Source: a virus
IMG/VR virus record: IMGVR_UViG_3300035145_004205
Coordinates: 1 to 30,734 of that record
DNA length: 30,734 bases
Reading direction: 5' to 3' (one strand)
A program made the position numbers and the translations under genes. Of this stretch, positions 4,512-23,482 are shown piece by piece (the stretch's first letter is position 1; every line of letters starts with the position of its first letter). The notes beneath the pieces are model-generated. The model was not told the DNA's origin, did not search any database, and was given only the letters and a program-made list of their open reading frames with translations.

Positions 4512-4512
4512 T

Positions 4513-5739
4513 TTATTCCTTAATAAGTCTAGTATTACTTGATTTGTCTGCCCAAACTATTTCCCCTCTTTTCGGGCCTGTTGTGTAAGATATCTGTTTT
4601 ACACCTGTGTGTGTTTTAATGACAGAGATTAATTCCATAAAGCCTTCATCTTTCATGCTTACAGCGTTAATTTTAGATAGCGAATATTTTCTGCCGTGCA
4701 AAAAGAAAGCTGGCTTATCTACATGTGTCATTACATCTGTTTTGACAACACATAAATGATCTACTCCATTTTGATGTATTGCTAACTTAACTTCATCTAA
4801 GTCTAGCCAGCCACACTGTCTAGGTCGACCGGTTGTTGCACCAAACTCTTGACCAACTTCAGCCAATATCTTTTCTTGACCGTCTTTAATAATACTAGGA
4901 AACTTTCCGCTTCCTACTTTAGTCTTGTAAGATTTGATAACACCTATTACTTCATCAATTTGCTTATGATTTAATCCTGTAGAGTTTATGGCACCACCAA
5001 CTGAAGGTGATGAAGATGTCACGTCTGGATAATTGTCTGAGTATATGTTTAATCCGCTTCCTTGTGCGCCTTCTAAAAGAATGTTATAGTCTTTTTTATA
5101 ATAATCATGAAGAACATTTTCATTGCTTAACTGATACATTCTTAGGATAGAAACCATGTTTGCATATTCAGAAACCCACAAGTTAAAAGAATCAAAATCA
5201 GGCTTTAAGTCCTCTAAACTTTCACCATCTTGTGCTCTTCTTTCCTGTAAATCGTAAAACTTAGATTGTATCTTAATTAGAGTTTGTTCAGGCATATTAA
5301 CCAAATCTTTAATTAAGACAGAGTCTCTAGCATAAAAGTCAGAATAAGCTGGCCCAATTCCTTTAGCAGTTGTACCTAGCTTTTTCTGATATTTGAGTCT
5401 ATCGATAATTTTGTGCGTTGGTTCTATAATAGGACAGTAACCTGAAACTGAAAGATTAGAACCTGGCTTTACATTTAAGTCAGTAACTTCTTTACAGAAA
5501 TCTTCTATGTCAATTACACAACCTCTAGCAATAATATTAATAACTTCTTTTGTTAAAACACCTACAGGAAGTATGTGTGTAACAAACTTATTACCTCGTC
5601 TATCGTATACAGTGTGACCTGCATTTCCGCCACCTTGAAATCTTACGACAACGTCAGCCCATGTTTCAACTAAATCGTCAACAACCCTGCCTTTACCTTC
5701 ATCTCCATGTTGGAGACCTAATACTAATTTTACTGGCAT
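4513..5739 (-). CDS. purA: Adenylosuccinate synthetase
   Basis: A 408-residue PurA homologue that makes adenylosuccinate from IMP, aspartate and GTP. Visible motifs: GDEGKGR at residues 12-18 with the catalytic Asp at 13, QGGGNAGHTV at 35-44 with the catalytic His at 42, TAKGIGPAYSD, LLEGAQGSGLN, VTSSSPSVGG and TTGRPRQCGWLDL. The catalytic Asp is retained. Phage PurZ enzymes, which make 2-aminoadenine precursors, carry Ser there, so this is PurA chemistry. One oddity is His in place of the usual Trp before GDEGKG. Its start codon overlaps the stop of the upstream gene at 5739, and purB begins one base after its own stop, so all three are one translational unit. Confidence 0.92.
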   Translation of the reverse strand: MPVKLVLGLQHGDEGKGRVVDDLVETWADVVVRFQGGGNAGHTVYDRRGNKFVTHILPVGVLTKEVINIIARGCVIDIEDFCKEVTDLNVKPGSNLSVSGYCPIIEPTHKIIDRLKYQKKLGTTAKGIGPAYSDFYARDSVLIKDLVNMPEQTLIKIQSKFYDLQERRAQDGESLEDLKPDFDSFNLWVSEYANMVSILRMYQLSNENVLHDYYKKDYNILLEGAQGSGLNIYSDNYPDVTSSSPSVGGAINSTGLNHKQIDEVIGVIKSYKTKVGSGKFPSIIKDGQEKILAEVGQEFGATTGRPRQCGWLDLDEVKLAIHQNGVDHLCVVKTDVMTHVDKPAFFLHGRKYSLSKINAVSMKDEGFMELISVIKTHTGVKQISYTTGPKRGEIVWADKSSNTRLIKE

Positions 5740-6800
5740 TATTTGTTCCTATTGAATATGTGAGCATTGCCTTCTGCATGCGATGATGTTGTTTGTCTTC
5801 TAAAGACAGCGTTTTCGTATAATTCTTTTAGATTACTAGCACCGCTATACGACATACCACTTCTTACGTTAGACATAATCTCATTGACGACCTTTGATGT
5901 TGTTCCTTTATATGGAACAAATGATGAAACGCCTTCGATTGAGTTATAAGTCCCTTTCCAGTTTTTTTGTGCTGCCTTTGATGCCATGCCGTTATATCTC
6001 TTAATCTTTTTACCGTCCTGAATAATTACTTTGCCTGGAGTTTCTCTTGTTCCACTTAACATTGATCCAAGCATTACAAAATCTGCTCCTGCTGCAAGCG
6101 ATTTAACAATATCACCGCTGTTCTTAATGCCGCCATCAGCAACAATATAAGGTGCTGGCCAGTCTTCACCGCTATCAATATATTCTTGTCTAGCTTCATA
6201 ACAGTCTAAGACTGCCTGAAATGTTGGGATTCCGTGCCCAGTCTGTATTCTTGTTGTACAAATACTGCCACTTCCAACAGAAGTTCTTATAGCATGAGCA
6301 CCTGCTAGTGCAAGACGTTTATAAGCATATCCTGTAGCAACATTACCTGCCATAACAAATAGATGTGGATATTCACTTCTGATAAATTCTATTACTTTTT
6401 CCATAAGAATATGGTCGCCATGAGCAATGTCAATACAGACAACACTTAAATCATTTTTTACTAGCTCTGATAATCTTTCCTTGTAATCTCCTGTTGCACC
6501 AATTGCTGCTGCTCTATAGTCTCTGTGGTTAACATAACCTAATAACTTAGCTTGAAAATCAATTGAGTTGTATCTATGAATAATTCCTAGTCCACCTTGA
6601 CTAATCATAGCATTAGACATATGAGCCTCTGTTACTGTAGACATAGGTGAGCTGATGATTGGTATATTGAATTTTAAGTTTCTGTTATTGTATTTTACTT
6701 CAATAGAAGTATCTATATCTTTTCTAGTTACTAGTTCTGAGTATTGTGGTTCTAATATAACGTCATCAAAACTTAGCACTTCATTATTATTAATTCTCAT
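5739..6800 (-). CDS. guaC-like: GMP reductase / IMP dehydrogenase family enzyme
   Basis: A 353-residue TIM-barrel enzyme of the IMPDH/GMPR family without CBS domains. Catalytic Cys181 lies in GSGSICTTRIQTG, ADGGI at 221-225 binds phosphate, and GSMLSGT follows. The N-terminus (FDDVILEP, STVTEA, GGLGIIHR) looks like IMPDH. The C-terminal flap instead looks like GMP reductase: GMASKAAQKNWKG followed closely by SIEG with Glu at 289, and there is no Arg-Tyr dyad as in IMPDH. YSGASNLKEL also resembles GMPR. I favour NADPH-dependent GMP to IMP conversion because purA and purB follow directly and would take IMP to AMP. IMPDH activity (IMP to XMP) remains possible. A GTGTAA promoter-like site lies upstream. 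Confidence 0.72.
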   Translation of the reverse strand: MRINNNEVLSFDDVILEPQYSELVTRKDIDTSIEVKYNNRNLKFNIPIISSPMSTVTEAHMSNAMISQGGLGIIHRYNSIDFQAKLLGYVNHRDYRAAAIGATGDYKERLSELVKNDLSVVCIDIAHGDHILMEKVIEFIRSEYPHLFVMAGNVATGYAYKRLALAGAHAIRTSVGSGSICTTRIQTGHGIPTFQAVLDCYEARQEYIDSGEDWPAPYIVADGGIKNSGDIVKSLAAGADFVMLGSMLSGTRETPGKVIIQDGKKIKRYNGMASKAAQKNWKGTYNSIEGVSSFVPYKGTTSKVVNEIMSNVRSGMSYSGASNLKELYENAVFRRQTTSSHAEGNAHIFNRNK

Positions 6801-6820
6801 TTAAACCTCTTTATAGAATT

Positions 6821-6849
6821 AGTGTAATAAAACAAATTACTATTTACAC
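6821..6849 (-). promoter_or_regulatory. GTGTAA-type promoter of the purine operon
   Basis: Minus strand: GGTGTAAAT (GTGTAA at 6844-6849), 17-base spacer, TACACT (6821-6826), 21 bases before the ATG at 6800. The -35 element is perfect; the -10 matches only four of six bases, making this the weakest copy. Confidence 0.5.
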
Positions 6850-6856
6850 CAAAGAT

Positions 6857-7777
6857 TTACATATTATTTAAAAAGTCTTTTCGATATTTCATAAGAGCTT
6901 TTTCTTTGCACTTAGCCTCGAGCATTACGTCGACTGATTTACCGCAGCTATCAAATGGTTTATAATAATAATCTGAATGTGCTGCAGCTGATCTTGTTGT
7001 AGGATCTTCGAACTCTTTTTTTCCATTTGAATGGTGGCATGTTGGCCGAATAGTTGATGGCCATGAATCGAAAGCCATATCAAAAGACTCGTCATAAGGT
7101 GCATCTTGTGGACCTAAGGTAAAGTGGTGTGCGTCAAAAACAATAGGAACCTTAGAAACTTTATAAATATTTTCGTATAGGAACTTTGAGCTAAACATTG
7201 AAGCTTTGTCATCGTTTTCTACTGTAAGTCTTGATTGAACTGAAGTGGAGAGCCTTTTAAAGTTTTTATTAAAGTTATCAGCAGCAAGTTGTAGATTACC
7301 TCCACACGTTGAACCTAAATGGATATTGATTTTTGACCAGTGGTCTTGGTCTAATCCCATAAGATCAAACAACTTGCCATGTATTTCTAAGTCTTTGATA
7401 CAATTGTCAACAACATAATCTTTTTCTGATGCAAGGCAGTTAAATTGTCCTGGGTGAAATGAAACTCTCTGCCTAATAACTTTAGTATAATCACCTGCCA
7501 TTTTTAGATAATGTTTTATTTCTTCATAATCAGGCAAATCATGAAGCTCGTACTCAGATGCCCAAGGAGCAATCTCTGACGAGATCCTAAAAACTTTAAT
7601 GTTGTTTTTATAATTCCAATTAAATATAGGCATCAAGTCTTTTACGTTTTGCAATACCAACTGCGAAACGTAAGGCAGACCTTTTGATAAAAAGGTAGCT
7701 TTGCGCATCGTTCTAGAATTGAATATACCTTTTTCTCGTAACTCCATATTAATGCATGCATATCCAAATCTATTCAT
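6857..7777 (-). CDS. uvdE-like: UV DNA damage endonuclease (UvdE/UvsE family)
   Basis: A 306-residue TIM-barrel endonuclease that nicks DNA 5' of UV photoproducts. Family landmarks are in order: an N-terminal GYACINMEL strand, FRISSEIAPWAS, RVSFHPGQFN, the metal-binding NIHLGSTCGG, LTVENDD, VFDAHHFT, and the C-terminal DVMLEAKCKEKAL. Length matches the family. It gives light-exposed phage DNA a photoproduct repair route separate from T4 DenV. It is transcribed away from the packaged-protein island, with a divergent 91-base region between. A GTGTAA promoter-like site and an AAAAAAGGA Shine-Dalgarno precede the ATG at 7777. Confidence 0.9.
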   Translation of the reverse strand: MNRFGYACINMELREKGIFNSRTMRKATFLSKGLPYVSQLVLQNVKDLMPIFNWNYKNNIKVFRISSEIAPWASEYELHDLPDYEEIKHYLKMAGDYTKVIRQRVSFHPGQFNCLASEKDYVVDNCIKDLEIHGKLFDLMGLDQDHWSKINIHLGSTCGGNLQLAADNFNKNFKRLSTSVQSRLTVENDDKASMFSSKFLYENIYKVSKVPIVFDAHHFTLGPQDAPYDESFDMAFDSWPSTIRPTCHHSNGKKEFEDPTTRSAAAHSDYYYKPFDSCGKSVDVMLEAKCKEKALMKYRKDFLNNM

Positions 7778-7868: not shown

Positions 7869-10670
7869 ATGAAAAACAATATAAGATGGTTATTAACAGA
7901 AGCAAAAATATCAAATATTGATCCTAACAAAATAAACTTTATAGATGGAAAGTTAATATGTTATCACTTAACATCAAAACAAAAGTGGATAGATAATAGC
8001 GAGATTGTAAGATTAATGGATTCGCCTTTTCCACCTGCAGACAAGGAAATTCTACCTACAGACAATAGAGCACAAAGAATTTTAAAAAAAATATCTAATG
8101 ACAAAAAAAACGTAAGACCTAAAGAATGGGAAATAGAAGAGTTTGTTATTACTGATATGATGGAAGATCCTTATACAAACACTAGCGGCTTTACTGCAGG
8201 TGGCGGTGACTACCATGGCAAAGGCCTCTACACTTGTTATAAGTTTAATCCTAAAATTGCAAGTAATTATGGTAACATATGTTTAGTATTTGAAATAGAT
8301 ATAAGTAACTTCTTAATAACTTTCGAAGACTTAGCAAAACAAGTTCATGGTGAAAACTGGAGAATCAAAGACCAGTTGGTAAAGCTCTATCAGTTAGAAG
8401 AAAGAAGTCCTGAAAGTATTGAAAAGTATAAGCAATTTTTGTCTGGAATACCTGACAGTGATTTGCAAATGGGAACTTCAGTTCAAGATCTTTCTACTAG
8501 AACAGCGCATATAAGTTTAAGATTACTTCGTGAATTTACAAAACAAAATATAACGTGTTTTTACGATGGCGTTGTACTATTTGGATCTGGAGATGGTCCT
8601 GTTTGCGTTTCTTTTTTGCCAAAATATGATGCTAAATTAATTGGACTAGGAAGAGTTAACAAGGTTAAACCTGAGATTGTTGACTGGTATGATAGCCTTG
8701 ACGATTTTCTTGGTGGACGTGCAAAGCTAAAGCAAGACTTTGAAACTCTAAACGACATCGCCATAGAAATTACAGATCCTGATGAAAAAGAAGAAATGAA
8801 GTCGAAAGATCGCTTGCCTTTTGATATGGAATATATAGAAATTTCAAAATTTTTCAACTCATACTATAATGCAAGTGATAAAAAACTAAGTGCTATTAAT
8901 GAACTATTTGACCTTTATGACAAAACAAAATCATCAAATGATCAATCAAAGCTTGAATTTTTCTTAAAGACTTTTAAAATGTCTAAATATTCAACTGACG
9001 TTGAATTAATTAAGCATCCAAGATTCAGTGAAATAAGTGACGAAGTTATTAAGTTTTACAATAGTAAGGCTTGGGACATGAGTATATACTATTATTCTGG
9101 CATACTAAATGTTTGTAGTCAATACAATATAAAAGTTTCTGAATTTTTCTTAGAAAATGCAATTAACGAATGTTTAAATGAAAAAATATTTAGAGCGAAA
9201 CAAGGATATGCAGTAGTACATTTTAACAAATTCCTTAATTCGTATCTAGAGAAAAACGGAGGCAGTGCCTATGTCCGTAGTATTTTACAAGACAAGTTAT
9301 ATGAAGTTGAGCCTGCCATAGCTGTTACATCAAACAGCGCTGAAAGAATTGTAGATGCTTATAACAATGGAGATAAACGTAACAAAAACAAAATACTTGA
9401 TTTAATATCACAAGACTTAGATAAAGTTGGAGGACAACGAAATTGGGGAAGAATTTCTTCTGATAAGTTTGATACTGCTAACGAAATATTAGAAAGAATA
9501 GTAGAAGCTATTTCTAAAAGCCCAAGCAATGATCATGAAATAGAATTTATCAAGTATTTAAGAGATGACTTGCCTTATACAGATTACTTCTCTAATATAA
9601 TAGACGAGTTCTTAGCTGAAGCTTTTGTTAATAATATTGCTGAAATTAAATCAATGAGTCCTAAGAGTCTATTTGTAAATACTTTAAATTATATTAAAAG
9701 AAAGCTAGGTGAATCTCATCCTAAAGTATTGCAAGCAAAAGAATTTATTGCGGAAGATGCTGCTAACGCAGGAAGAGACATTGAAGACTTTATTGAAAAA
9801 CTAAACTTAGGTAAAGTAACAAATTCACAACTTAAGTTAATGTTTAGAAGACTGCAAGAAGACTTACCTTATATTTCATATATTAGCGGAAAAACAAAAG
9901 ACTGGTTTAAAACATTTGTTAATGCTGTTATAAACAATATTACTATCAAAAACTTTAAAGTTTTAGGAAAATCAGAAACATATTTTCTTTTAGCTATTAT
10001 ATTAGGACAAGATATTATATTGTCTAGAGATGAACAGATTTCTTTTACAAATAAATTTGGTAAGTCTGACTATAACAGTAAAAATCTCATTGCCAATTAT
10101 AGGCACATTGATCCAGACGTTTTTATTAATCTAATCGGTCCAGACCTTAAAGCAGGCGGGATGGGTCCAGGTTTGACGTTTAAAGGCTTTGAATACACAC
10201 CTAATATTTATAGACTCTTGTATAATCACAGAAAAATTGTAGATCTTTTTTGCGACGTAGCTCGACCAGGATTGATGAAAATGATTATAGGCAACCTTAA
10301 CGACGAGCTTATGGGTCATCCTAATCCACAACATACTTGGGGTCAAAGTGGTTTTCTAAAAGGATCGTCTGTAAGCTACCACTTTGATACACTTCCTTAT
10401 ATACATGATACTAGTGAAAAAATAAAAATATCAGAAGCAGTCAACATGGATGACATTGCTTGGTTTGAATACTTTATTAGCAAAGCCAAAAAAGCACCAA
10501 AAAGAGGTGTTGCTGGAGTTATCGCTACACTTGAAATGAATCTTAATGACAAAAAATCAAAAATGCAACCGACAACATCTACTCAGACAAGTGATGATTT
10601 AGATCCTCAATTAGATTTAAGTCATAGAAAAATCGTAGGCAGTTCTCTTAAAGAAGTTTATAATTTTTAA
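7869..10670 (+). CDS. ADP-ribosyltransferase-like protein with capsid-targeting leader
   Basis: A 933-residue protein. The frame stays open upstream, but the start at 7869 is chosen because ACGAGGG lies just before it and because it yields a leader MKNNIRWLLTE|A like the neighbours. Residues 30-150 carry ADP-ribosyltransferase features of the H-Y class: CYHLTS (H33), then GDYHGKGLYTCYKFNPKIAS (113-132; Tyr121 in GKGLY) and NYGNICLVFEI, close to the PARP/diphtheria-toxin pattern G-x-G-[IL]-Y followed by S..Y. I could not assign the third catalytic acid. About 650 helical residues of unknown role follow. T4 Alt is the precedent: a packaged, injected ART that modifies host proteins. The same job is inferred here. 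Confidence 0.7.
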   Translation: MKNNIRWLLTEAKISNIDPNKINFIDGKLICYHLTSKQKWIDNSEIVRLMDSPFPPADKEILPTDNRAQRILKKISNDKKNVRPKEWEIEEFVITDMMEDPYTNTSGFTAGGGDYHGKGLYTCYKFNPKIASNYGNICLVFEIDISNFLITFEDLAKQVHGENWRIKDQLVKLYQLEERSPESIEKYKQFLSGIPDSDLQMGTSVQDLSTRTAHISLRLLREFTKQNITCFYDGVVLFGSGDGPVCVSFLPKYDAKLIGLGRVNKVKPEIVDWYDSLDDFLGGRAKLKQDFETLNDIAIEITDPDEKEEMKSKDRLPFDMEYIEISKFFNSYYNASDKKLSAINELFDLYDKTKSSNDQSKLEFFLKTFKMSKYSTDVELIKHPRFSEISDEVIKFYNSKAWDMSIYYYSGILNVCSQYNIKVSEFFLENAINECLNEKIFRAKQGYAVVHFNKFLNSYLEKNGGSAYVRSILQDKLYEVEPAIAVTSNSAERIVDAYNNGDKRNKNKILDLISQDLDKVGGQRNWGRISSDKFDTANEILERIVEAISKSPSNDHEIEFIKYLRDDLPYTDYFSNIIDEFLAEAFVNNIAEIKSMSPKSLFVNTLNYIKRKLGESHPKVLQAKEFIAEDAANAGRDIEDFIEKLNLGKVTNSQLKLMFRRLQEDLPYISYISGKTKDWFKTFVNAVINNITIKNFKVLGKSETYFLLAIILGQDIILSRDEQISFTNKFGKSDYNSKNLIANYRHIDPDVFINLIGPDLKAGGMGPGLTFKGFEYTPNIYRLLYNHRKIVDLFCDVARPGLMKMIIGNLNDELMGHPNPQHTWGQSGFLKGSSVSYHFDTLPYIHDTSEKIKISEAVNMDDIAWFEYFISKAKKAPKRGVAGVIATLEMNLNDKKSKMQPTTSTQTSDDLDPQLDLSHRKIVGSSLKEVYNF

Positions 10671-10679
10671 GGTAAAATT

Positions 10680-10964
10680 ATGTTGCCGTTTAGAGAAAAG
10701 ATAATCGAAGAAACAGAAACATATATACTCGTCCAGCGCAACTTCATGTCAGACGTGTCTGGTGATGAATTAAACTGGCATATGGACAAAGAAGATCGAG
10801 AAGTCTTTGTTGTTGAAGGTGACGGATGGTATTTGCAAATAGAAAATGAGCTGCCTCAAATGATGCAGAAAGAATCTTTATTTAAAATACCTAAAGAAAT
10901 ATGGCATCGAATAATTAATAGAAACGGAACAAATTTAATAATCAACGTGAGAAAATATAAATGA
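10680..10964 (+). CDS. Small single-domain cupin
   Basis: A 94-residue protein whose centre reads as a cupin barrel: ELNWHMDKEDREVFVVEGDGWY (about 30-51, similar to cupin motif 1, G..H.H....E.) and IPKEIWHRIINRNGTNLIINV (about 70-90, motif 2, with W-H). Potential metal ligands are H34, E38 or D39, and H76. It has no capsid-targeting leader although both neighbours do. It follows the ART gene by nine bases and its stop overlaps the next start (ATGA), so it is translated with them. Substrate and enzyme activity cannot be judged; it may be a small stabilising or regulatory protein of the same late transcript. Confidence 0.65.
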   Translation: MLPFREKIIEETETYILVQRNFMSDVSGDELNWHMDKEDREVFVVEGDGWYLQIENELPQMMQKESLFKIPKEIWHRIINRNGTNLIINVRKYK

Positions 10965-12712
10965 ACTTGTTATTAAAACAATATATTAAAAATTATTTAT
11001 TAGAAGCTGCATCAACTGCAATTGCGATGCCAGCAAGCTCTATCGGTGGAGAATTTCAACACAACTTAGGTGCATCATATCAAAACGATATGACTTCTTT
11101 GAATGATGAAGAATCACTTTTAAAAGTTTTAGAAAATGTCGGTAATAATTGCTTTATTTCTTTTGTAGACAAATACGACGAAAACATACCAAGGTTAGAA
11201 ATAAATCCTGACGTTTCTTACGACACACCTCACGGAAATTATGCTTACCCTCTTACAATTAAAAGTCTTAAAGATATTATAGAAAAGTCAAGAATTGGAG
11301 GTACATCTTTTGCATTAAATAGACCTTATTTTCATATGTTTAAAAAGTCTAATAATGTTAACGCAATAAACTTAGAAAAAGATGGAAGTAACAATTATTC
11401 AGGAGACTTTAGAAAAGACTTGAAAACAATTGTACATACATCTATTATATTTAAAGCAGCAAAATTTTTAGAATCAAATGAGTTTGTAGATATGTCTGAT
11501 TTGACTGCTAATTATAAATCCCAAGCAATATTTTTTGCGAAAAATCGAATTGGAAGGAAAATTAAAGCTAATAGTAATAATAACATTAATGACAATAGGG
11601 CATTCAATAAAACTTTGTTAGATCTTTTAGCGCAATTATGTAGATTATACCAACTTAATAATAATCAATTTCCAATTAATGAAACTAAAATTATTGTAGA
11701 CTTCATTAGTAAACAAATTTATGATAGGGCAAATTCTAAAAACAATATATTTTTTAATAAAAAGACAAACAAGGCTTTATCTGATTTTCATATTCTTTAT
11801 TATGGATGTTGGTTACTTTCTACTTTATTAACTGAGGAATCTTATTCTGACTTTCCTTCTGATAATGATAATCGCATCATGGGTCCTGTTTTTACTATGC
11901 TTTTAAATTCTATAGATATTGATTTTATAAATGATAAAGGCTCACAAACTATTCACAAAAATGAACCTATACAAGCTGTTTATTTAAATTCGTCAAAAGA
12001 AGAAAATATTGTTTTAATTGGAACTTTTAATAATATATTTAGCACAAAAAAAATTAATTCCATTGATGATCTATTTAATGCATATCACGAATCAAGTTCT
12101 AACTCAAACAAGGGCGTTACAATGAACAAAGTAGTTGATATGATTGAAAAAAATCCACAACTTGGTGATCTTTTTGGAACTGAACTTTTTGATGATGTTA
12201 AATTAGAAAATTCCTTAGAATATCTAAGAGAAAAAGCATGGCAAGATTTAACTAAAAAACAATTAAAGATTGCAAAGTTTAAACAATTTCATTTAGCAAA
12301 TAAAATAATAAGACTAAACATATACCAACAATCTCAAAATACTTCTAACCCAGGATTAATAATATTTGATATTGGAATTAAAAAAAGCTTTAAAAATGCA
12401 GATATAAACCAACAGCTTTTAATGATACATGAAGACCTACCAAAAATAGTTCAGATCGAAGATTCACTCACTTATCTTCAAGTATTTTTGTCAAAATATC
12501 AGAAAAAAAACGTATATCACATTTTTGGTATGAATGCTTTATCAAACATGACAGAAACGCTTGATAAAATACAAGATTATGCAGCAAGCATTGAAATTGA
12601 AAGCGAAGAAGTTAAAAAGCAAGTTATGTCACTTCAGATGTTTATTTACATAGTTCAGGACATTATAAATCTCGCTTATATAGCTCATGAAAGTACACTA
12701 CATGACAGTTAG
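10961..12712 (+). CDS. 583-aa putative internal head protein
   Basis: The protein opens with MNLLLKQYIKNYLLE|A, a basic amphipathic leader ending in a T4-like prohead-protease site (L-x-E before A). Behind it comes a short linker rich in A, S and G, then a segment around residues 70-110 with NPDVSYDTPHGNYAYPLT that I associate only vaguely with conserved phage proteins, and a long AT-rich helical body containing many N, K, I and D. No catalytic motif is visible. Its position between the ART-like protein and the histone-like proteins, with the same leader, suggests a packaged protein of unknown function. Confidence 0.65.
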   Translation: MNLLLKQYIKNYLLEAASTAIAMPASSIGGEFQHNLGASYQNDMTSLNDEESLLKVLENVGNNCFISFVDKYDENIPRLEINPDVSYDTPHGNYAYPLTIKSLKDIIEKSRIGGTSFALNRPYFHMFKKSNNVNAINLEKDGSNNYSGDFRKDLKTIVHTSIIFKAAKFLESNEFVDMSDLTANYKSQAIFFAKNRIGRKIKANSNNNINDNRAFNKTLLDLLAQLCRLYQLNNNQFPINETKIIVDFISKQIYDRANSKNNIFFNKKTNKALSDFHILYYGCWLLSTLLTEESYSDFPSDNDNRIMGPVFTMLLNSIDIDFINDKGSQTIHKNEPIQAVYLNSSKEENIVLIGTFNNIFSTKKINSIDDLFNAYHESSSNSNKGVTMNKVVDMIEKNPQLGDLFGTELFDDVKLENSLEYLREKAWQDLTKKQLKIAKFKQFHLANKIIRLNIYQQSQNTSNPGLIIFDIGIKKSFKNADINQQLLMIHEDLPKIVQIEDSLTYLQVFLSKYQKKNVYHIFGMNALSNMTETLDKIQDYAASIEIESEEVKKQVMSLQMFIYIVQDIINLAYIAHESTLHDS

Positions 12713-12720
12713 GAATTATT

Positions 12721-12996
12721 ATGAATTATGATTTAATATTAAAAGAATTTATAAGAGAAACTTTACTAGATGAGGCTAGAAAAAAAAGAAAGCGTAAAAA
12801 GAAAAAGCGTAAAAAGAAAAGGCCTGGCAGAAAAGAATACTATCAAGGTATAAACAGTAAAGGGAAAAAAGAAATGGCTCGCGAAATAAACAAATGTACA
12901 AAGCCTAAAAATGCGCCTAAAAACTGGAAGCCACCAAAATCTTGTTATGATAGTGAATGGGAAGCAGACAAAAAAAAGTATAGGACTAAAAAATGA
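12721..12996 (+). CDS. Highly basic 91-aa putative packaged DNA-binding protein
   Basis: The leader MNYDLILKEFIRETLLDE|A matches the capsid-targeting pattern. It is followed by an extreme Lys/Arg tract (residues 20-39), then EYYQGINSKGKKEMAREI, a segment with two Cys (CTKPKNAP...PKSC) and a basic tail. Protease cutting after LDE would release a mature protein that is almost entirely basic, well suited to neutralise packaged DNA. It overlaps the next gene by four bases (ATGA). Similar leaders and composition in the next protein suggest a functional pair. No enzyme motif seen. Confidence 0.7.
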   Translation: MNYDLILKEFIRETLLDEARKKRKRKKKKRKKKRPGRKEYYQGINSKGKKEMAREINKCTKPKNAPKNWKPPKSCYDSEWEADKKKYRTKK

Positions 12997-13364
12997 ATAA
13001 TCTTGTATTACTTGAAGAATTTATAAAAGAATCTTTATTGAACGAAGCTAAAAGAGGTAGAAAAAAAGGAAAGAAAAAGTCTGCTTCTAAAAAAAGATCT
13101 GCTAAAAAAGGCAAATCAAAGTCTGCTAGGCGAAAGTCTTCTGCAGGAGGATTATCAGCTGCTACAAAAGAAAAGTTAAAAAAACATGCTGATAAGAAAG
13201 GTTATACCGCAGCGTCAGTTTATGCTGAATATAGAGCAGGATTAGCTGCATGGGTTACTGGTCATCGCCCTGGAATACCTCAACATGCTTGGGCAATGGC
13301 AAGAGTTAAATCAGCAACACCCTCAAAGCCTTGGGCTAAAGTTAAAAAGAAAAAAGGCAAATAA
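12993..13364 (+). CDS. Histone H1-like basic 123-aa putative packaged protein
   Basis: The leader MNNLVLLEEFIKESLLNE|A is nearly the same as that of the preceding gene. Residues 20-52 are a K/S/R/A-rich low-complexity tract (KKKSASKKRSAKKGKSKSAR), like bacterial and phage histone-H1-like tails. A small folded part follows with KEKLKKHADKKGYTAASVYAEY and a conserved-looking GHRPGIPQHAWAMARV, then another Lys-rich tail. I infer a DNA-condensing internal head protein. The stop is followed one base later by the TTG start of the next gene. Confidence 0.7.
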   Translation: MNNLVLLEEFIKESLLNEAKRGRKKGKKKSASKKRSAKKGKSKSARRKSSAGGLSAATKEKLKKHADKKGYTAASVYAEYRAGLAAWVTGHRPGIPQHAWAMARVKSATPSKPWAKVKKKKGK

Positions 13365-13365
13365 A

Positions 13366-14013
13366 TTGAGAAATAATAAACTACTAAATGAAAACAAAAA
13401 CATACTTTCAGAAGGATTACGTTTTCATCTGATTGAAGAAATTGGAATAGATAACAATATATATAGACCTGGATCTTCTAAATACTTTGATTTATTTAGA
13501 GAGGTTAGGGACTTAAGCCACATGGGTTTATATGAATTAAACTCAGTAGAAAAATATTTCATTACCGAAACTGATATTGGTGAGTGGGAATTTTATAATG
13601 GAAAACTAGTTCCATTAGACTATCCAATCTTAGAAGGCGACGAATCTTTAAAAGCAAGTATTCCTTTAGAAGTATTAGAAGAAAAACGTAAAAGAAAAAC
13701 GTCTAAAAAAAGCAAGTCTAAAGGTGGAAGTATGTACCAAGGTAGAAAAGTACAGCTTAACAAACCTAAAAAAGGTGGATCCAAAAAGTATTATGTTTAT
13801 GTTAAAAATCCTAAAACAGGAAACGTCAAGAAAGTTTCTTGGGGTGCTAAAGGAATGTCTGTAGGCATTAGTGATCCTAAAAGAAGAAAATCATTTGCAG
13901 CTCGACATCGATGCCATTTAACTAAAGACAAAACAACAGCTAGTTATTGGGCATGCAGAACAGGTCGTTATCCACATTTAACTGGTTCAAAAAAGAAATA
14001 TACATGGTGGTAA
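13366..14013 (+). CDS. 215-aa basic putative packaged protein, TTG start
   Basis: The frame is open further upstream, overlapping the preceding gene, but no sensible start lies there. A TTG at 13366, one base after the previous stop, gives MRNNKLLNENKNILSE|G, again a leader with L-x-E before a small residue, so I place the start there. The middle contains EWEFYNGKLVPLDYPILE. The C-terminal 95 residues are basic, with KKYYVYVKNPKTGNVKKVSW, then KRRKSFAARHRC and SYWACRTG, a pattern with paired Cys and aromatics that I recall from conserved phage proteins of unknown function. It ends seven bases from the convergent minus-strand gene. Confidence 0.65.
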   Translation: MRNNKLLNENKNILSEGLRFHLIEEIGIDNNIYRPGSSKYFDLFREVRDLSHMGLYELNSVEKYFITETDIGEWEFYNGKLVPLDYPILEGDESLKASIPLEVLEEKRKRKTSKKSKSKGGSMYQGRKVQLNKPKKGGSKKYYVYVKNPKTGNVKKVSWGAKGMSVGISDPKRRKSFAARHRCHLTKDKTTASYWACRTGRYPHLTGSKKKYTWW

Positions 14014-14019
14014 TAACAA

Positions 14020-14553
14020 TTATTTTTTCTTTTTCTTTTTAGGAAAACCTATTATAGTTCTATTGTTAAATCTTCTTGCTAGATATCCTCTTAACTGCTC
14101 TGTCATATCAAAATTACCAATTTTTTGAGAATCAGGTAAATCTTGTATTCGCTTAACTAACTCTTTAACAAAGTCTTCTTCTAGATCATTATCAACAATT
14201 TGAGAAACTTCGTCGTCTATATCAAAATTAGCTAAAAAATTATCTGGTCTATCTTCGTCTTTAACTTTATACAAAGATGTAATAAGATCAACAACATCTA
14301 ATGAACCGCCAAGAGGAGTAAAACCAAGCAAAGCTTTTCCTACTTCTAGACCTTTGCTAGTCTTACTAGAATCTGAAATTGTAATTAATATTGATTTAAG
14401 TTCTCCGTATGTAGAGTCTTTATTTAAACTTTTAATTTTCTTTGTTATCGGGTTAGCATCGTTAATTTTATTTTTTAAATATTCTATTTCATTTAATTTT
14501 CTTGTTTTGTGTATAGTTTCTCTTATGTATTTTTTTAACAATCTATTGCTCAT
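14020..14553 (-). CDS. 177-aa conserved phage protein with capsid-targeting-like leader
   Basis: Encoded on the opposite strand to its neighbours, yet with the same kind of leader: MSNRLLKKYIRETIHKTRK followed by LNE|IE. The body has a hydrophobic glycine-rich stretch GKALLGFTPLGGSLDVVDLI (about 76-95), an acidic section with DIDDEVSQIVDNDLEEDF, FDMTEQLRGYLARRF, and a terminal Lys tract. The GFTPLGGSLDVVDLI...DIDDEVS pattern is one I recall from T4-like marine phages as a conserved structural unknown. The hydrophobic stretch might interact with membrane during DNA entry, but that is speculative. It shares a 69-base divergent region with the nuclease gene at 14623. Confidence 0.65.
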   Translation of the reverse strand: MSNRLLKKYIRETIHKTRKLNEIEYLKNKINDANPITKKIKSLNKDSTYGELKSILITISDSSKTSKGLEVGKALLGFTPLGGSLDVVDLITSLYKVKDEDRPDNFLANFDIDDEVSQIVDNDLEEDFVKELVKRIQDLPDSQKIGNFDMTEQLRGYLARRFNNRTIIGFPKKKKKK

Positions 14554-14622: not shown

Positions 14623-14988
14623 ATGAAACCGTATTATTATATTGCTGAAGTTGTGTCTGTTTATGATGGCGATACTTGTACATGTGTTGTTGATTTAGGC
14701 TTTAAGACACAAGTTAGAATTAAAGTCAGAATGATTGGAATCGACACGCCAGAGATTAGAACAAAAGACAAAGACGAAAAAGAAAAAGGCTTAGCAACAC
14801 GTGATTGGCTACGTGAAAGAATTCTTGGCAAGAAAGTCCTATTACATACAAAAGAGCGTGGAAAGTTCGGTAGATGGCTTGGTATGATTTGGGAAATGGA
14901 AGAAGATAAACCTGAGTTCGAAAATAGTTATAATAAAAAATTAATAAACGAAGGTCTCGCCAAAGAATACTGGGGTGGTAAACGATGA
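14623..14988 (+). CDS. Staphylococcal-nuclease-like (TNase) endonuclease
   Basis: A 121-residue SNase-fold nuclease. Catalytic and metal-site motifs: VYDGDTCTC (residues 13-21), RMIGIDTPE (36-44, giving the first catalytic Arg, Asp and Glu) and ERGKFGRWLGMI (78-89, the second catalytic Arg at 84). The C-terminus NKKLINEGLAKEYWGG fits the family's final helix. Such enzymes cut DNA and RNA non-specifically with calcium. It lacks a signal peptide and a capsid leader, so it probably acts in the cytoplasm, perhaps in host DNA or RNA breakdown. An AAAAAAAGG Shine-Dalgarno precedes the ATG, and its stop overlaps the next start (ATGA), tying it to the 829-aa protein. Confidence 0.88.
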   Translation: MKPYYYIAEVVSVYDGDTCTCVVDLGFKTQVRIKVRMIGIDTPEIRTKDKDEKEKGLATRDWLRERILGKKVLLHTKERGKFGRWLGMIWEMEEDKPEFENSYNKKLINEGLAKEYWGGKR

Positions 14989-17474
14989 AATATAGTCTTA
15001 AAAACGAATATAAAAAATTACTTAACGAAGAAATAGTCTCTGTAATAAGAAGCTCTAATTATGCTGAAGAGATATATGATGTAAATTTCGATCCTAGTAC
15101 AGGAAAAATAATTTCAGGCGAAAAGTTTGAACCTACACAAAATACAGCTGACAGAACTTATAGAAAAATATTTGATGAATCATTAATAGCACAACAATTT
15201 ACTATTGAGTCTAGATTAAAAATAATATCTTTTTTAAATAAACTAATGAGACCAGATGCAACAGGCTCCTACAAAGGATATGGCATATTACAACCTTGTC
15301 CAAGCAATCCAATCGAAATTGTTGATCGTTTAAACAGACATTTTCGTGAGACTATTGAATGGAGACCTTCAAACAAAATTGGAAGAGGCGAAGTTTCTAT
15401 AAGGCTTGCTTTTTCAAGTAAGATTAACAACTTAAAAGAAGGTGAAGATGCAAGTAATTACAGAGAGCCTGATTTTATTGGATGGAATGAAAGAAACCAA
15501 CAAACAATCAAGCTATCAATAAAAAGTTTTGTATCTATAAAAAAGCAAGGTGCTGATCAAGCTGGAACTGTTAGAACTGGAACAAATCTAGACCCTTTGA
15601 TAATTGACATACTTGAAAAACTTAGTAAAGAAGTATTTAACGGCACCGAATATACGTCAGTTTGGAACCCTAAAAATAAAATAATTACTAATCAAAAAAC
15701 AGGAATCAATCATAAAGCTTTTAGAGAAATTGTTAATCATTATACAGAAAATGACAGCGTTACAAATAAACTGCAAAAATTAAACAAAATCAAAATATAT
15801 CTTCAAAATATCAAGAGACAAATTATTAAAGAGCACGGCGCTGTAGGTATTATTGCAATTAAAAAAAATAAAACATTTGACTATATAAGTCCTGACCAAT
15901 TCGATAGAATATCTATATACACTTTTAATGGCAAGAGGTTTTTCTTTTATATGCCAGAAGATGACTCTGAAGCTGGAAGATCAAGCTGGGAACTAGAATT
16001 AAATGATATGATTATAGAGCAAGAAAATCTTTTAAGTCAAACAGATCAAATTCCTACTGAAAATTCTTCTTATGTTCCTCAAGGCAAGGTGTTAAAAGAA
16101 GTCTATTCGTACTTATTTAAAAAAAAACTAATTAGCGAGGGTGGATTAGCAGGTCATATGATGCATCCTTATGAAGCATTAGATATGACACCAAGACAGA
16201 TAATTGATAGAATAAAAGAATATAGTAATTCACAAAAGATTATAGAAAAAGTCGACGGACAAAACTTATTCTTTACAGTCGAAAAAGACGGTACTCTTAT
16301 GTTCGCACGTAATAAAGAAGATATGACACATAATGACTTAGTAGAAAAGTTTACTAACCACCCCGCAGAAGTTCCGTTTGTTACAGGTGGCAACGCTATT
16401 AAAAAAGGTGTAGACCAGTGGTTATCTTCAGCAGGTGCATTTGGAAGTCAAGAAATATTAGATATCTTTCATCCAGATGGTGAAGCTAGATCATTTATAA
16501 ACTTTGAAATTATGCACAAAGACCACCCAAATCAATTAGAATACGGAGAAAACTTTATTGTTTTTCATAGTATTGTTGATTTTATCAATGGAAGGGAAGC
16601 AGTTTATTCTTCAAACAACAGTCAAAGGCTTAATAAATTAATTAATCTTATGAAGCCAGGCATTGAATCTTCTGGTTATACATTAGCGTCTAATAGAACA
16701 GTTGATATTAATAAACTTACAAACGTACAGATAACTCATTATGTAGATAGAATCAAAGAAATTGCTAATCGGCTAGACATTACTGAGACTGAGTTCCTTG
16801 GAGACGGAGTAGAAAAACAAATCAAAAAACAATTAGATGCTGAAGGTATTGACATCAGCGATGAAGCAATAAAAATTTTATATGACTTTGCGCTTTATGG
16901 CGAAGATAGACTAGGCAATAAAATAAAAAGTAAAGACTTTACTAGACTAATGAAGTCTGACGATGTAAAAAAACTAAGAGATATCAATTTAACTAGTGCT
17001 AACAAAGCAGCAGCTAAAGTAAGAAATATTTTGTCTCCGTTTAAAGATATATTTGTTGATCTAGGTATAGATTTGCTAGACGGTACACCTTCAGCATATA
17101 TGGATTCAGAAACTGACTTGAGAAATATTGATAATTTGCGTGACAAGCTAGAGACTGCAATTGATGATCTAAGAATGTACATGAACAGTACACCAGAAAA
17201 CGAATGGGATTCAGTAGTAACTAGACTTAAACCTCACTATGACAAAGTTGTCGAAGTAGGTGTGTACAACACAATATCAACGTCAGTTGAAGGCGGCGTT
17301 TACGACTATCAAGGTGATCTATTAAAAGTTACTGGCGGATTTGCACCGATGAATCAGATTTTAGGCGCAGCATACAGAGATAAAAAAGGTATATTTACAA
17401 CCTTTAAACAAAAGTTTATGCATCAGGAATCAAATAGAAGATCTTTAAAATCTGTTTTTAGTTCAATCTTCTAA
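14985..17474 (+). CDS. Nuclease-like plus ligase-like fusion with capsid-targeting leader
   Basis: An 829-residue protein beginning MKYSLKNEYKKLLNE|E. Residues 130-185 look like a PD-(D/E)xK-type nuclease core: GRGEVSIRLAF (133-143), PDFIGW (Asp163) and LSIKSF (Lys180), although the usual Glu of ExK is replaced by Ser. Around residue 386 begins GGLAGHMMHPYEALDMT, then the nucleotidyltransferase motif I EKVDGQNLFF with Lys422 as likely AMP-attachment site, FARNKEDM (motif III-like) and INFEIM (motif IIIa/IV). This is the covalent nucleotidyltransferase fold of RNA and DNA ligases. The last 270 residues are unassigned. A packaged protein that can both cut and seal nucleic acid ends is suggested; substrate (DNA or RNA) is unknown. 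Confidence 0.68.
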   Translation: MKYSLKNEYKKLLNEEIVSVIRSSNYAEEIYDVNFDPSTGKIISGEKFEPTQNTADRTYRKIFDESLIAQQFTIESRLKIISFLNKLMRPDATGSYKGYGILQPCPSNPIEIVDRLNRHFRETIEWRPSNKIGRGEVSIRLAFSSKINNLKEGEDASNYREPDFIGWNERNQQTIKLSIKSFVSIKKQGADQAGTVRTGTNLDPLIIDILEKLSKEVFNGTEYTSVWNPKNKIITNQKTGINHKAFREIVNHYTENDSVTNKLQKLNKIKIYLQNIKRQIIKEHGAVGIIAIKKNKTFDYISPDQFDRISIYTFNGKRFFFYMPEDDSEAGRSSWELELNDMIIEQENLLSQTDQIPTENSSYVPQGKVLKEVYSYLFKKKLISEGGLAGHMMHPYEALDMTPRQIIDRIKEYSNSQKIIEKVDGQNLFFTVEKDGTLMFARNKEDMTHNDLVEKFTNHPAEVPFVTGGNAIKKGVDQWLSSAGAFGSQEILDIFHPDGEARSFINFEIMHKDHPNQLEYGENFIVFHSIVDFINGREAVYSSNNSQRLNKLINLMKPGIESSGYTLASNRTVDINKLTNVQITHYVDRIKEIANRLDITETEFLGDGVEKQIKKQLDAEGIDISDEAIKILYDFALYGEDRLGNKIKSKDFTRLMKSDDVKKLRDINLTSANKAAAKVRNILSPFKDIFVDLGIDLLDGTPSAYMDSETDLRNIDNLRDKLETAIDDLRMYMNSTPENEWDSVVTRLKPHYDKVVEVGVYNTISTSVEGGVYDYQGDLLKVTGGFAPMNQILGAAYRDKKGIFTTFKQKFMHQESNRRSLKSVFSSIF

Positions 17475-18066
17475 ATAAAATATTAAAGATTTCTTCTTTA
17501 TCTTCGTCTGATATTTCTCTTGGTAAACCATCCAAAAATAAAAACTTATCCTCAGAAGCATTTGACAAGTAAGAGCGCATTAGTGTACCGCTAATTGCCA
17601 TTGTGTCTTCACCTCTAAGTAAGGTTCTTAAATAAACTCGATCAATAATCGGCGCGTAATACTTTGAAGAATATCTATTTTCATCTTCCTCACCTGTATA
17701 TATTGCATAAGTTGTTTCATCGTTTTTTATCGATGCTTCTTCAAGCTTTTTATAAACATTACCAACAGGTGAGCCACCAAAAACACACAAAGCATTTTGA
17801 GGCAAGTATTTTGAAATGATTGTTTCCCAAATAATTTTCATGTCTTCACCAAATATAGTGACTTCACCTTTTCTTTTTCTGTCAGATGTTGAAACATATA
17901 TAATAACTTGCTTGCATTCATCGCATGCTTTTCTTATTAATGACATATGTCCTTCATGAAAAGGTTTAGCTGACATCGGTACAAGACCAATATCATATTG
18001 ACCTTCTAAGTCATAGTCTTCGTTTATAAAGCTACGCCAATTTTCAAGCAATATATTTGATTTCAT
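17458..18066 (-). CDS. HxGH nucleotidyltransferase (NMNAT/cytidylyltransferase-like) with leader
   Basis: A 202-residue Rossmann-type nucleotidyltransferase: GLVPMSAKPFHEGHMSLIRKA (H37 and H40 of the HxGH motif) and ISGTLMRSYL (158-167, the ISxTxxR motif), as in NMN adenylyltransferases, PPAT and cytidylyltransferases. It starts MKSNILLENWRSFINE|D, fitting the packaged-protein leader. Possible products are NAD+ (from NMN and ATP) or a CDP-linked compound; sequence alone does not decide. A link to NAD+ is attractive because the window also encodes a NAD+-using ADP-ribosyltransferase-like protein. The gene's 3' end overlaps the convergent 829-aa gene by 17 bases, and its start overlaps the stop of the 97-aa gene. 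Confidence 0.75.
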   Translation of the reverse strand: MKSNILLENWRSFINEDYDLEGQYDIGLVPMSAKPFHEGHMSLIRKACDECKQVIIYVSTSDRKRKGEVTIFGEDMKIIWETIISKYLPQNALCVFGGSPVGNVYKKLEEASIKNDETTYAIYTGEEDENRYSSKYYAPIIDRVYLRTLLRGEDTMAISGTLMRSYLSNASEDKFLFLDGLPREISDEDKEEIFNILFRRLN

Positions 18067-20602: not shown

Positions 20603-20853
20603 TATCTTCTCTTTAATAGTTCAATAACTGATTCTTGAAAATCAGGTGACTTTGCAATATTAAATATCTCTTCTTTACTATGATTTAACTCATATTTTTT
20701 TGAAATATTTTCAGCAATCTTAACAAACGATCTATTGATAATATTTCTTACAGTTGAGTGATTCATTTTATCTCCGTCGTTTGTCATGACTTTAGCGATA
20801 TCATGAAGACCTAGTCCTGTGTTTTTTACTGTTACGTATTTTTTAGCTTTCAA
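20602..20853 (-). CDS. Small HTH protein resembling sigma region 4
   Basis: An 83-residue protein with a TTG start at 20853, inside the last codons of the sigma-factor gene and in its +1 frame (11-base overlap). Residues 14-50 read as an HTH close to sigma-70 region 4.2: LGLHDIAKVMTNDGDKMNHSTVRNIINRSFVKIAENI, where helix 2, a turn with an insertion, and the recognition helix STVRNIINRS align with E-I-[AG]...S...VR.I...A..K[LI]. Because the sigma protein upstream ends right after region 4.1, this protein may supply the missing -35-binding module in trans, or by a frameshift. The role is inferred; the HTH is reasonably clear. Confidence 0.65.
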   Translation of the reverse strand: MKAKKYVTVKNTGLGLHDIAKVMTNDGDKMNHSTVRNIINRSFVKIAENISKKYELNHSKEEIFNIAKSPDFQESVIELLKRR

Positions 20854-21595
20854 GGTATTTTCTCATTTCTGGTGTTATTGGAAATTTTTCAAAGTTATCG
20901 TCATTATTATTAATCCCAAATCGAAGTCTAATGATTTTTTCTTCTTTTGGCGTTAAAAGTGATAAGCTTTCTTCTACAATCTGATTTAACTCTTTGTTTT
21001 CTAAAGAAGTTGCCGGATTTGAAAACTCAGACGTGTCTTCTATTTTGTTTAGTAAACTAAAAGTATTTGACTCATCATTGCTGTTATCAATAGAAGCAAT
21101 ATGCTTATTAGACTTTAATGTATATTTTATTTTCTTTACAGGTTCATCTACTAGCTTTGATATCTCTTGTAGCGTTGGATTTCTGCCATTTTTATTTTCA
21201 AATGCAGTAATTTCTTTTTTGATTTTTGCATTTAAAAGTCTTGAATGTGTCGGTACTTTAATATTTGTAGAGTTTTCGTTTATGTATTGCAACGCTGCTT
21301 GTTTAATCCACCAGCAGGCGTATGTACTAAACTTATAACCTAATTCAGGATCAAACTTATTTACTGCTTTAAGAAGACCAATACTGCTTTCTTGAAGTAG
21401 ATCCTCAAAGTCAAGATCTTTTCTGTGATATTTTTTTGCAATAGAAATAACAAGTCTATAGTTTGACTCAATCAGTTTTTTTCTTGCTGACTCGTCACCT
21501 TTCTTAATTCTTCTAGAAAGTTCTATTTCTTGTTTTTTTGTAAGCAAAGGATTTTGTTTAATGATACGTGAATAGTCTGAACTAATAGCTGCCAT
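20843..21595 (-). CDS. Sigma-70 family factor lacking region 4.2
   Basis: A 250-residue sigma factor. Region 1.2/2 is well conserved: LTKKQEIELSRRIKKGD (18-34), LIESNYRLVISIAKKY, DLDFEDLLQESSIGLLKAVNKFDPELGYKFSTYACWWIKQA (60-100, regions 2.1-2.4). Region 3 is TLQEISKLVDEPV (141-153). Region 4.1 begins LTPKEEKIIRLRFGI (214-228), but the protein then ends in a short unrelated tail (NNNDDNFEKFPITPEMRKYLES) with no DNA-binding HTH. It resembles group 1-3 bacterial sigma more than T4 gp55. It probably redirects host RNA polymerase to phage promoters, with the -35-reading part perhaps given by the overlapping downstream ORF. A GTGTAA promoter precedes it. Confidence 0.85.
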   Translation of the reverse strand: MAAISSDYSRIIKQNPLLTKKQEIELSRRIKKGDESARKKLIESNYRLVISIAKKYHRKDLDFEDLLQESSIGLLKAVNKFDPELGYKFSTYACWWIKQAALQYINENSTNIKVPTHSRLLNAKIKKEITAFENKNGRNPTLQEISKLVDEPVKKIKYTLKSNKHIASIDNSNDESNTFSLLNKIEDTSEFSNPATSLENKELNQIVEESLSLLTPKEEKIIRLRFGINNNDDNFEKFPITPEMRKYLES

Positions 21596-21850: not shown

Positions 21851-23482
21851 TTAATACATATCGTCAGACAACTGAACTAGCTGAACTCCTGCATGAGAAT
21901 CTTGTGTATTTAGTACAATACAACCAACTGATAACAGGCTATTACACACGCTTACAGCATTTGAAATTGCTGTTGCAGTTACCTTTTGTGGATCTATAAT
22001 GCCTTCTTCAATCATGTCTACATATCTTTCTGTTCTTACGTTGTAACCATATTCCCATTGCGGATTATTTTTAATCATTTCAATAATATAGTCAACAGGT
22101 TTGTCTCCGTTTCTTAGAATTTTTCTTAATGGTGACATACATGCATCTGCAACAATTTTAGCGACAGTAGAATCAAGAAGTGACTCCTCGCTTAAATTTT
22201 CTAACAGCTTAATTCCAGCTTTTGCTAAAGCAATTCCGCCTCCAGGCAAAAACCCGCTTTCAATTGCTGCCTTTGTTGCGTGAAGAGCATCGTCAATTCT
22301 ATCTACTAATTCTAAAAGCTCAGATTCTGTGTGTGCACCAATTGACAATACAGCCACGATACCTTTATTAATAATAAGTCGTTGCTTATAAAATGCTTCT
22401 TCTTCTTTAGTAATTGATTTATCTTCTAGCTTCTTTTCAATGTCACGTGATATTTCATCTGAATTTTCGCAAGAAGCACATTCAACAAATAAAGTTGTAT
22501 CATGAGTTGTTTCAATCTTTTTACAAGAACCTAAATCTGAAAGCACTGCACTAGAGATTTCTTTTTCGTCTAGATCATAGAAAACTTTTGTGTCGAGCGC
22601 CTTGGCTAAGTCTGTTAGAATCTGGTTTCTCTTCTCACCATAAAAAGGTGATCTAACTGCACATACTTGAAGCATACCCTTAGAAACATTTGCAAGCAAA
22701 GACTGAATTACTTCTTGTTCATAGTCGTTTGCAATTAAAAATAAAGGCTTTCCTGTCTGATGGACTTTTTCTAGCACAGGTAGTATCTGTGTTAAAGAGT
22801 TTAACTTACAAGAAAGAATCATAACAAGCGGATCGTCTAATACTGTTTTTGATTTCTCGTTATCATTTATAAAATAAGGTGAAACATATCCTCTGTCAAT
22901 CTTTACTCCTCTAACAAGTTTAAGCTCGGTACTTGTAGTCTTTGATTTCTCAACAGTTACAAGTCCAGATGTTCCTACCTCAAGCATAGCATTAGCAATA
23001 AGATTTCCAATGTACTCGTCACCATTAGCGCTGATAGTTGCGACTTGCTTTATCTCTTCGTTTGAAGAAACCTTCCTTGACTTTTCGCTAAGAATATTAA
23101 CTACTTCTTCTACTTTTTTATTTAGAAAGTTTGTAATTTCCGAAGGTGATCCAATACCTGTTTGTAAAGCCTGTGATGATCTAAAGTATAATTCTTTTGC
23201 AAGAACTGTAGAGGTTGTGCTTCCGTCACCAGCAACTGTTGCAGTATTTTCACTTGCTTGCTTTAACAGCTTTGCGCCTAAGTCTTCTACTCTATTTTCT
23301 AGTACAATACTCTTTGCTACTGTTGCGCCATCTTTTGTTAAGTGAGGTGGCTCGTTGTTTTTTTCTATAAGAACGAGCTTTCCTCGTGGGCCCATAGTAA
23401 TAGATACAGCATCACAAAGCTTTTTAACACCGCTTTTAAGCAATGACTGTGCTTCGGCATCAAAGAAAATTAAATCAGACAT
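21851..23482 (-). CDS. groEL-like: Phage-encoded GroEL-type chaperonin
   Basis: A 543-residue group I chaperonin homologue, close to the usual length of 540-550. Seen: ITMGPRGKLVLIE (28-40), the ATP-site loop VAGDGSTTSTVLA (83-95, usually AGDGTTTATVLA; Asp86 kept), DRGYVSPYF, and the C-terminal equatorial RIDDALHATKAAIESGFLPGGGIAL with Asp in the position of the hydrolytic Asp398. It lacks the usual GGM tail of bacterial GroEL and ends in a different sequence. No GroES homologue was seen nearby, so it may act without one, as the phage EL chaperonin does, or borrow the host co-chaperonin. It probably folds phage structural proteins or enzymes. Confidence 0.93.
   Translation of the reverse strand: MSDLIFFDAEAQSLLKSGVKKLCDAVSITMGPRGKLVLIEKNNEPPHLTKDGATVAKSIVLENRVEDLGAKLLKQASENTATVAGDGSTTSTVLAKELYFRSSQALQTGIGSPSEITNFLNKKVEEVVNILSEKSRKVSSNEEIKQVATISANGDEYIGNLIANAMLEVGTSGLVTVEKSKTTSTELKLVRGVKIDRGYVSPYFINDNEKSKTVLDDPLVMILSCKLNSLTQILPVLEKVHQTGKPLFLIANDYEQEVIQSLLANVSKGMLQVCAVRSPFYGEKRNQILTDLAKALDTKVFYDLDEKEISSAVLSDLGSCKKIETTHDTTLFVECASCENSDEISRDIEKKLEDKSITKEEEAFYKQRLIINKGIVAVLSIGAHTESELLELVDRIDDALHATKAAIESGFLPGGGIALAKAGIKLLENLSEESLLDSTVAKIVADACMSPLRKILRNGDKPVDYIIEMIKNNPQWEYGYNVRTERYVDMIEEGIIDPQKVTATAISNAVSVCNSLLSVGCIVLNTQDSHAGVQLVQLSDDMY

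Follow-up and report, generated by a model that had tools for sequence, protein, structure and literature searches.

The locus raises the question of whether the 829-aa protein encoded at 14985-17474 is one enzyme that cuts and seals nucleic acid, or a precursor from which separate enzymes would be released. The window analysed here is the whole of a 30.7-kb virus fragment from IMG/VR (30,734 nucleotides), and a preliminary description of it had read this ORF as a packaged-type fusion of a nuclease-like domain and a ligase-like nucleotidyltransferase. The 829-aa ORF was found exactly at these positions, with the motifs that had been named for it: GRGE (residues 133-136), PDFIGW (162-167), SIKSF (178-182), EKVDGQN (421-427), FARNK (440-444) and FEIM (507-510). 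These motifs exceed chance; residues within them are invariant in 73 ligase-domain relatives or, for the nuclease-like motifs, in five module-bearing sequences. The full 829-aa protein gave no family in Pfam, NCBIfam, PHROG or PDB-sequence searches. Its features are as follows.

14623-14988, + strand: SNase-like nuclease gene, which shares its last 4 bp with the beginning of the 829-aa ORF.
14985-17474, + strand: predicted precursor ORF, 829 aa, ATG start, comprising a leader, a nuclease-like module, a second leader with a protease-type site and an RNA-ligase-fold domain.
14985-15029, + strand: residues 1-15, a capsid-targeting-like leader MKYSLKNEYKKLLNE at the N-terminus that closes with a Leu-x-Glu site (LLNE15).
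15030-16079, + strand: variable N-terminal module (residues 16-365), a probable PD-(D/E)xK-type nuclease.
15390-15392, 15468-15473, 15516-15518 and 15522-15524, + strand: nuclease-module codons for E136, P162-D163, S178 and K180, respectively.
16080-16139, + strand: second leader-like segment KVLKEVYSYLFKKKLISE (residues ~366-385), ending in a predicted prohead-protease site, LISE385/G386 (the slash marks the predicted cut).
16140-17471, + strand: RNA-ligase-fold nucleotidyltransferase (residues 386-829), from conservation and predicted fold.
16248-16250, 16308-16310, 16506-16508, 17289-17291 and 17325-17327, + strand: ligase codons for K422 (motif I), R442, E508, E769 and K781, respectively.
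16605-17279, + strand: residues 541-765, a mostly helical insertion of ~220 aa that separates ligase motif IIIa from motif IV, from the secondary structure of the predicted model.

Close relatives keep the SNase-like gene at the same place before the precursor ORF.

The C-terminal part, residues 386-829, is confidently predicted to take an RNA-ligase (Rnl2/Trl1-type) fold, with pLDDT mostly 84-97 across residues 390-800. The top 35 Foldseek matches to this model were all RNA/DNA ligases or tRNA ligases, T4 Rnl2 coming first, followed by a Naegleria RNA ligase, a tRNA ligase and T4 Rnl1, and then by an archaeal RNA ligase and DNA ligases. The top 36 VIA matches were likewise ligases, the best being the Naegleria RNA ligase with a modest Z of 8.3 (rmsd 4.3, 184 residues aligned). 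The fold thus resembles ligases and not an unrelated protein, and the ligase-like nucleotidyltransferase core suggested earlier, together with its putative AMP-accepting lysine, is borne out: K422 and D424-G425 of the motif I Lys-x-Asp-Gly are present in 73/73 non-redundant relatives, where H391, H394, E421, R442, F495, E508, N516, Y520, E769, K781, G784, F786, N790 and Q791 are also invariant. The domain begins with a conserved GG-x-x-GHxxH, the GHxxH segment preceding motif I.

Motif spacing points in the same direction as the fold. The EK-x-D-G-x-N and the Arg that follows are spaced as K35/N40/R55 of T4 Rnl2; by eye, EKVDGQN with R442 aligns with EKIHGTN and R55, the Arg lying 20 residues after the Lys in both, and across motifs III-IIIa FEIM...N...Y...F.VF can be set against GEFAG...N..Y....F.VF at near-equal spacing. 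Profile comparison with the Rnl2 family was weak (E 0.0067) with motif I in the same register, and 2/200 column-shuffled controls scored as high. The Pfam RNA_ligase model matches 9/47 family members weakly (best E 0.0038). The window protein gave no match to this model (PF09414), falling short of its curated cut-off, and hhalign of the domain against single T4 ligases returned no significant match. Motif V reads K781-V-T783 (first Lys in 73/73, Thr in 71/73) and not Lys-x-Lys, the form common in covalent nucleotidyltransferases; Lys-x-Thr is unusual for a ligase. As Lys-x-Lys is not universal, the fold assignment stands, while function as a ligase becomes less sure. The domain is therefore not assigned to PF09414 and would act like an RNA ligase by analogy with its predicted fold.

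Two known identities were considered and rejected. An NAD+-dependent DNA ligase (LigA) does not fit, as DNA_ligase_aden (PF01653) was absent from the Pfam scan of the window protein; PF01653 was also not among the best-ranked families of 47 ligase-family members, and a search of 16 ligase-bearing records for a LigA-type ligase gave one unrelated locus only, in record W02. Nor is this the usual RNA ligase or tRNA-repair ligase of these phages, since 5/16 ligase-bearing records have separate genes for canonical RNA ligases, which argues that the family described here has a distinct function.

The family is common in environmental sequences. At least 582 IMG/VR stretches encode it, the best 80 of which were taken for analysis, and it occurs in 3/50,697 GenBank phage records, namely Microcystis phage Mel-JY01, for which the literature search returned no paper, and a pair of uncultured phages (462 and 484 kb). 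When bacterial and archaeal genomes were scanned, 10 loci emerged, almost all of them from metagenome-assembled genomes. None of the Pfam, PHROG and NCBIfam models names the family, leaving a large ligase-fold family of environmental phages unnamed in the databases searched; related entries are annotated as 'cytidyltransferase-like', that domain being their recognised part. When the tree is rooted at its midpoint, the seven window-clade proteins group together, beside ligase-NMNAT proteins with the fusion at the C-terminus.

The second feature that bears on function is the gene adjoining the precursor ORF.

17458-18066, - strand: NMNAT-like HIGH-superfamily adenylyltransferase with its own leader MKSNILLENWRSFINE, carrying H37xGH40 and ISGTxxR.

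This gene and the end of the precursor ORF are convergent, with a 17-bp overlap. From its sequence, the product is a HIGH-superfamily nucleotidyltransferase, exceeding the TIGR00125 cut-off of 27.7 with 37.1 bits, and the closest solved structure is the archaeal NMNAT MJ0541 (E 2.5e-12). The best NMNAT models score far below their equivalog cut-offs, so the partner is called NMNAT-like only. HxGH and ISGTxxR are kept in most of its counterparts. An NMNAT-like domain was observed fused to the ligase or nearby in 76/84 ligase loci, as an N-terminal fusion in 25, a C-terminal fusion in 25 and within the fetched neighbourhood in 26; of the eight loci that lack it, four are contig-edge fragments truncated on the 5' side. 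No account of this pairing or fusion was found in the literature searched. A variant arrangement occurs in relative L008 (LR756508.1), where positions 4474-7221, upstream of a terminase-like gene, encode ParB-like, NMNAT-like and ligase domains in one 915-aa protein without the Glu-Gly-Gly junction described below.

The near-universal pairing, in both fusion orders, suggests that NAD metabolism and nucleic-acid repair are enzymatically connected as infection begins, and it may be read in more than one way. The ligase could be fuelled by NAD+ as AMP donor, with the partner converting released NMN and ATP to NAD+, which would agree with the resemblance of the partner to archaeal NMNAT and with the conserved GHxxH segment ahead of motif I. 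However, an NAD+-specific Ia-type domain was not recognised in the ligase, the partner falls below every NMNAT equivalog cut-off, and RNA ligases of the RNA-ligase fold normally use ATP, and this reading is given a fairly low probability. The fold might instead be reused for AMP transfer involving small molecules or proteins rather than for nucleic-acid sealing, as in recovery of NAD+ against an NAD-depleting defence. The second Lys missing from motif V, the large helical insertion, the separate canonical RNA ligases of several of these phages and the presence of the NMNAT-like partner would all suit such a role, but every other ligase catalytic position is invariant and NadV, an enzyme of NAD salvage, turned up in no more than 2/16 ligase-bearing records; the proposal is considered unlikely.

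Upstream of the ligase, the sequence [LIVMF]-x-Glu/Gly-Gly marks the junction in 48/50 proteins with any sequence before the domain, against a background of 4% (58/1374) for the same signature at 30 other offsets. The upstream contexts fall into 26 groups less than 40% alike, 25 of which keep the signature. Glu residues in this setting are where the proteases of T4 (gp21) and of giant phages cleave, T4 uses a short peptide at the N-terminus as its capsid-targeting leader, and the propeptide of T4 gp23 is 65 residues long (PMC9026906). The junction is thus probably a T4-type prohead-protease signature, with a predicted cut at E385/G386, which makes the product more probably a packaging polyprotein than one cut-and-seal enzyme. 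In Mel-JY01, the Gp23-type capsid protein has LISE/A near residue 61, the same tetrapeptide as at the window junction.

Whether the signature could instead reflect the structure needed where the domain begins, in an ordinary intracellular late enzyme, was also considered. Cleavage is predicted from sequence, and searches of the window and of its nearest relatives, all of them fragments, gave no prohead protease, but also no Gp23 and no convincing terminase. Against this, the 22 proteins without an extension begin M-GG (one M-GA), so that the fold does not need the Glu, and a gp21-type protease (PF03420, S77) is encoded in 10/11 ligase-bearing records larger than 110 kb. A purely structural junction is accordingly given a low probability, and maturation by a prohead protease is preferred. 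About 20 loci with the NMNAT-ligase arrangement have a terminase ~2 kb downstream.

The leader offers further evidence for packaging. Its first ~16 aa are conserved among relatives whose modules differ, and similar leaders are borne by neighbouring genes.

7869-14553: genes with similar leaders, starting at 7869, 10961, 12721, 12993 and ~13354 on the + strand, and one at 14020-14553 on the - strand.

These neighbours form a putative cohort of packaged proteins. The leader pattern occurs in 10/11 genes of this island and in 7/26 others (p = 0.0007), a result that is supportive only, since two of the island genes counted have a match that is not leader-like, the region and the loose pattern having been picked post hoc. 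The 'packaged-type' character proposed in the preliminary description therefore gains support from the leader peptide, the protease-type junction and the packaging-gene context, all of them read from sequence.

Several members of this group were observed to have features of their own. The 933-aa product of 7869-10670 (+ strand), with leader MKNNIRWLLTEA, shows ART/PARP-like motifs by eye (CYHLTS and GKGLYTC) without a family match, and could be an Alt-like packaged enzyme. The gene at 12993-13364 (+ strand) encodes a DUF5824-like basic protein with a leader, which is matched by the C-terminal part of the phrog_3041 'cytidyltransferase' profile, a further link between the cohort and the adenylyltransferase. 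Outside the window, a HAD-like protein recognised by eye at 365-970 of relative L032, with leader MKLLLENWRNYV, is found close to the ligase in seven loci and is perhaps another packaged enzyme.

Between the two leader-like segments lies the module that differs most among relatives. Residues 16-365 are flanked by the conserved start of the leader and by a conserved last ~18-30 aa, and the module is 28-42% identical in relatives whose ligase is 69-87% identical. Five sequences carry it, with G133, E136, P162, D163, S178 and K180 invariant in the pattern G-x-G-E136, P162-D163, S178-x-K180, in which Ser replaces the acid of ExK. The conservation of D163 and K180 is thus upheld, and with it the motif on which assignment to the PD-(D/E)xK nucleases had been based, whilst the match in fold is weak. 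No usable nuclease fold came from the model of the whole protein; modelled alone, the module reached pLDDT 65, and its best eight VIA matches were restriction enzymes (HincII, HhaI, EcoRV and HinP1I first) at Z 4.7-5.4. Foldseek gave nothing below E 1 for this model, the module matched no family model, and no downstream invariant acid was found. The module is considered a probable PD-(D/E)xK-type nuclease with a low-confidence fold.

The suggestion that the Ser may render the nuclease inactive does not follow. Active CCGG-family enzymes use PD-x(21-53)-K-x(12-13)-E, with the acid displaced (PMC4652773), and in PD-(D/E)xK enzymes another part of the chain may supply the D/E or K (PMC4081073); as the Ser is conserved, it does not imply decay. 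By analogy, E136 could supply the displaced acid.

The distribution of this module also bears on whether the two parts form a single cut-and-seal enzyme, in which joined nuclease and ligase would process the ends of the entering genome or host RNA. They lie within one ORF, and catalytic-type residues are kept in both. The module is, however, confined to the small window clade, a scan for further copies having yielded known relatives only, and in L004 and L012 its place is taken by another module, which bears an Asp-Leu-Lys motif (the two copies being 27% alike, E 4e-22). With the nuclease missing or replaced in almost all relatives, and a protease-type LISE/GG junction common to unrelated upstream contexts, the single enzyme proposed at first is not supported and is regarded as quite improbable.

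The explanation preferred here, which is judged rather likely, is that of a head-carried precursor cut by a T4-gp21-type protease, its ligase-fold enzyme and NMNAT-like partner repairing nucleic acid early in infection. The leader would direct the precursor into the prohead, where the protease would cut after E15 and E385, as the near-invariant junction suggests, giving a nuclease-like piece and a ligase beginning Gly-Gly. From its fold and invariant residues, the ligase would be a covalent nucleotidyltransferase taking AMP onto K422, from ATP or from NAD+ remade by the partner. Their coupling is observed, and a joint reaction with the adjacent adenylyltransferase may be proposed from it. Delivered with the genome, the pair would most likely repair broken nucleic acid in the first minutes of infection, with RNA (cleaved tRNA, for instance) a likelier substrate than DNA in view of the fold and motif similarity. 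The swappable nuclease module would be a separate weapon or processing enzyme sharing the packaging route. A more specific proposal, offered tentatively and held at low likelihood, is that this represents an unrecognised phage system, comprising a head-packaged RNA-ligase-fold enzyme matured to Gly-Gly by the prohead protease, an NMNAT partner recharging its AMP donor and, in the window clade, an exchangeable nuclease 'warhead' that this protease would also set free.

Similarities to known systems are partial. With T4 RNA ligase 2 (RnlB, gp24.1) and PF09414 the family shares its predicted fold, the EK-x-[HD]-G-x-N motif I with Arg 20 residues beyond the catalytic Lys, the motif III Glu and the motif IV EG-x-V, but it differs in scoring below the Pfam cut-off and in its helical insertion ahead of motif IV, the Lys-x-Thr of motif V, the GG-x-x-GHxxH start, the NMNAT-like coupling and the packaging-type leader. 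The internal head proteins of T4, and Alt, resemble the adjacent gene group in their short leader and hydrophobic-x-Glu site, and related phages encode the gp21-type protease; the window precursor, whose packaging is predicted, differs in a second in-chain site that would free two enzymes. Phage NadM/NadR NMN adenylyltransferases of NAD+ salvage (PMC9503650) are, like the partner, of the HIGH superfamily and NMNAT-like, whereas the domain that accompanies the partner, by fusion or as a neighbour, has a ligase fold and is not a Nudix or kinase domain, with NadV mostly not found in the records searched. Phage Rnl2-HNH fusions (PMC7824862) likewise combine an RNA-ligase-fold domain with an N-terminal nuclease, but the nuclease of the window is PD-(D/E)xK-like, the modules meet at a protease-type junction, and the ligase lies outside the RNA_ligase model. 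The restriction enzymes HincII, HhaI, EcoRV, HinP1I and those of the CCGG family share the order Glu ... PD ... x-x-Lys and include the best, weak, fold matches, the window module differing in its Ser at the ExK acid.

The protease-type junction provides a simple sequence rule that could expose further packaged enzymes, and proteomics of a single cultured phage, Mel-JY01 of Microcystis, would bring the question of what T4-like heads inject within reach of a test.

Elsewhere in the window, homologues of adenylosuccinate lyase, adenylosuccinate synthase and IMPDH/GMP-reductase lie in a row at 3333-6800 (- strand), forming a phage purine-nucleotide cluster, the PurA-like protein of which scores far better with the PurA model than with that of PurZ (2-aminoadenine). 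A UV damage endonuclease, UvdE, is encoded at 6857-7777 (- strand) and scores above the curated cut-off, and a Cpn60-like chaperonin homologue, recognised by eye, lies at 21851-23482 (- strand), near a sigma-70-type factor gene at 20843-21595.
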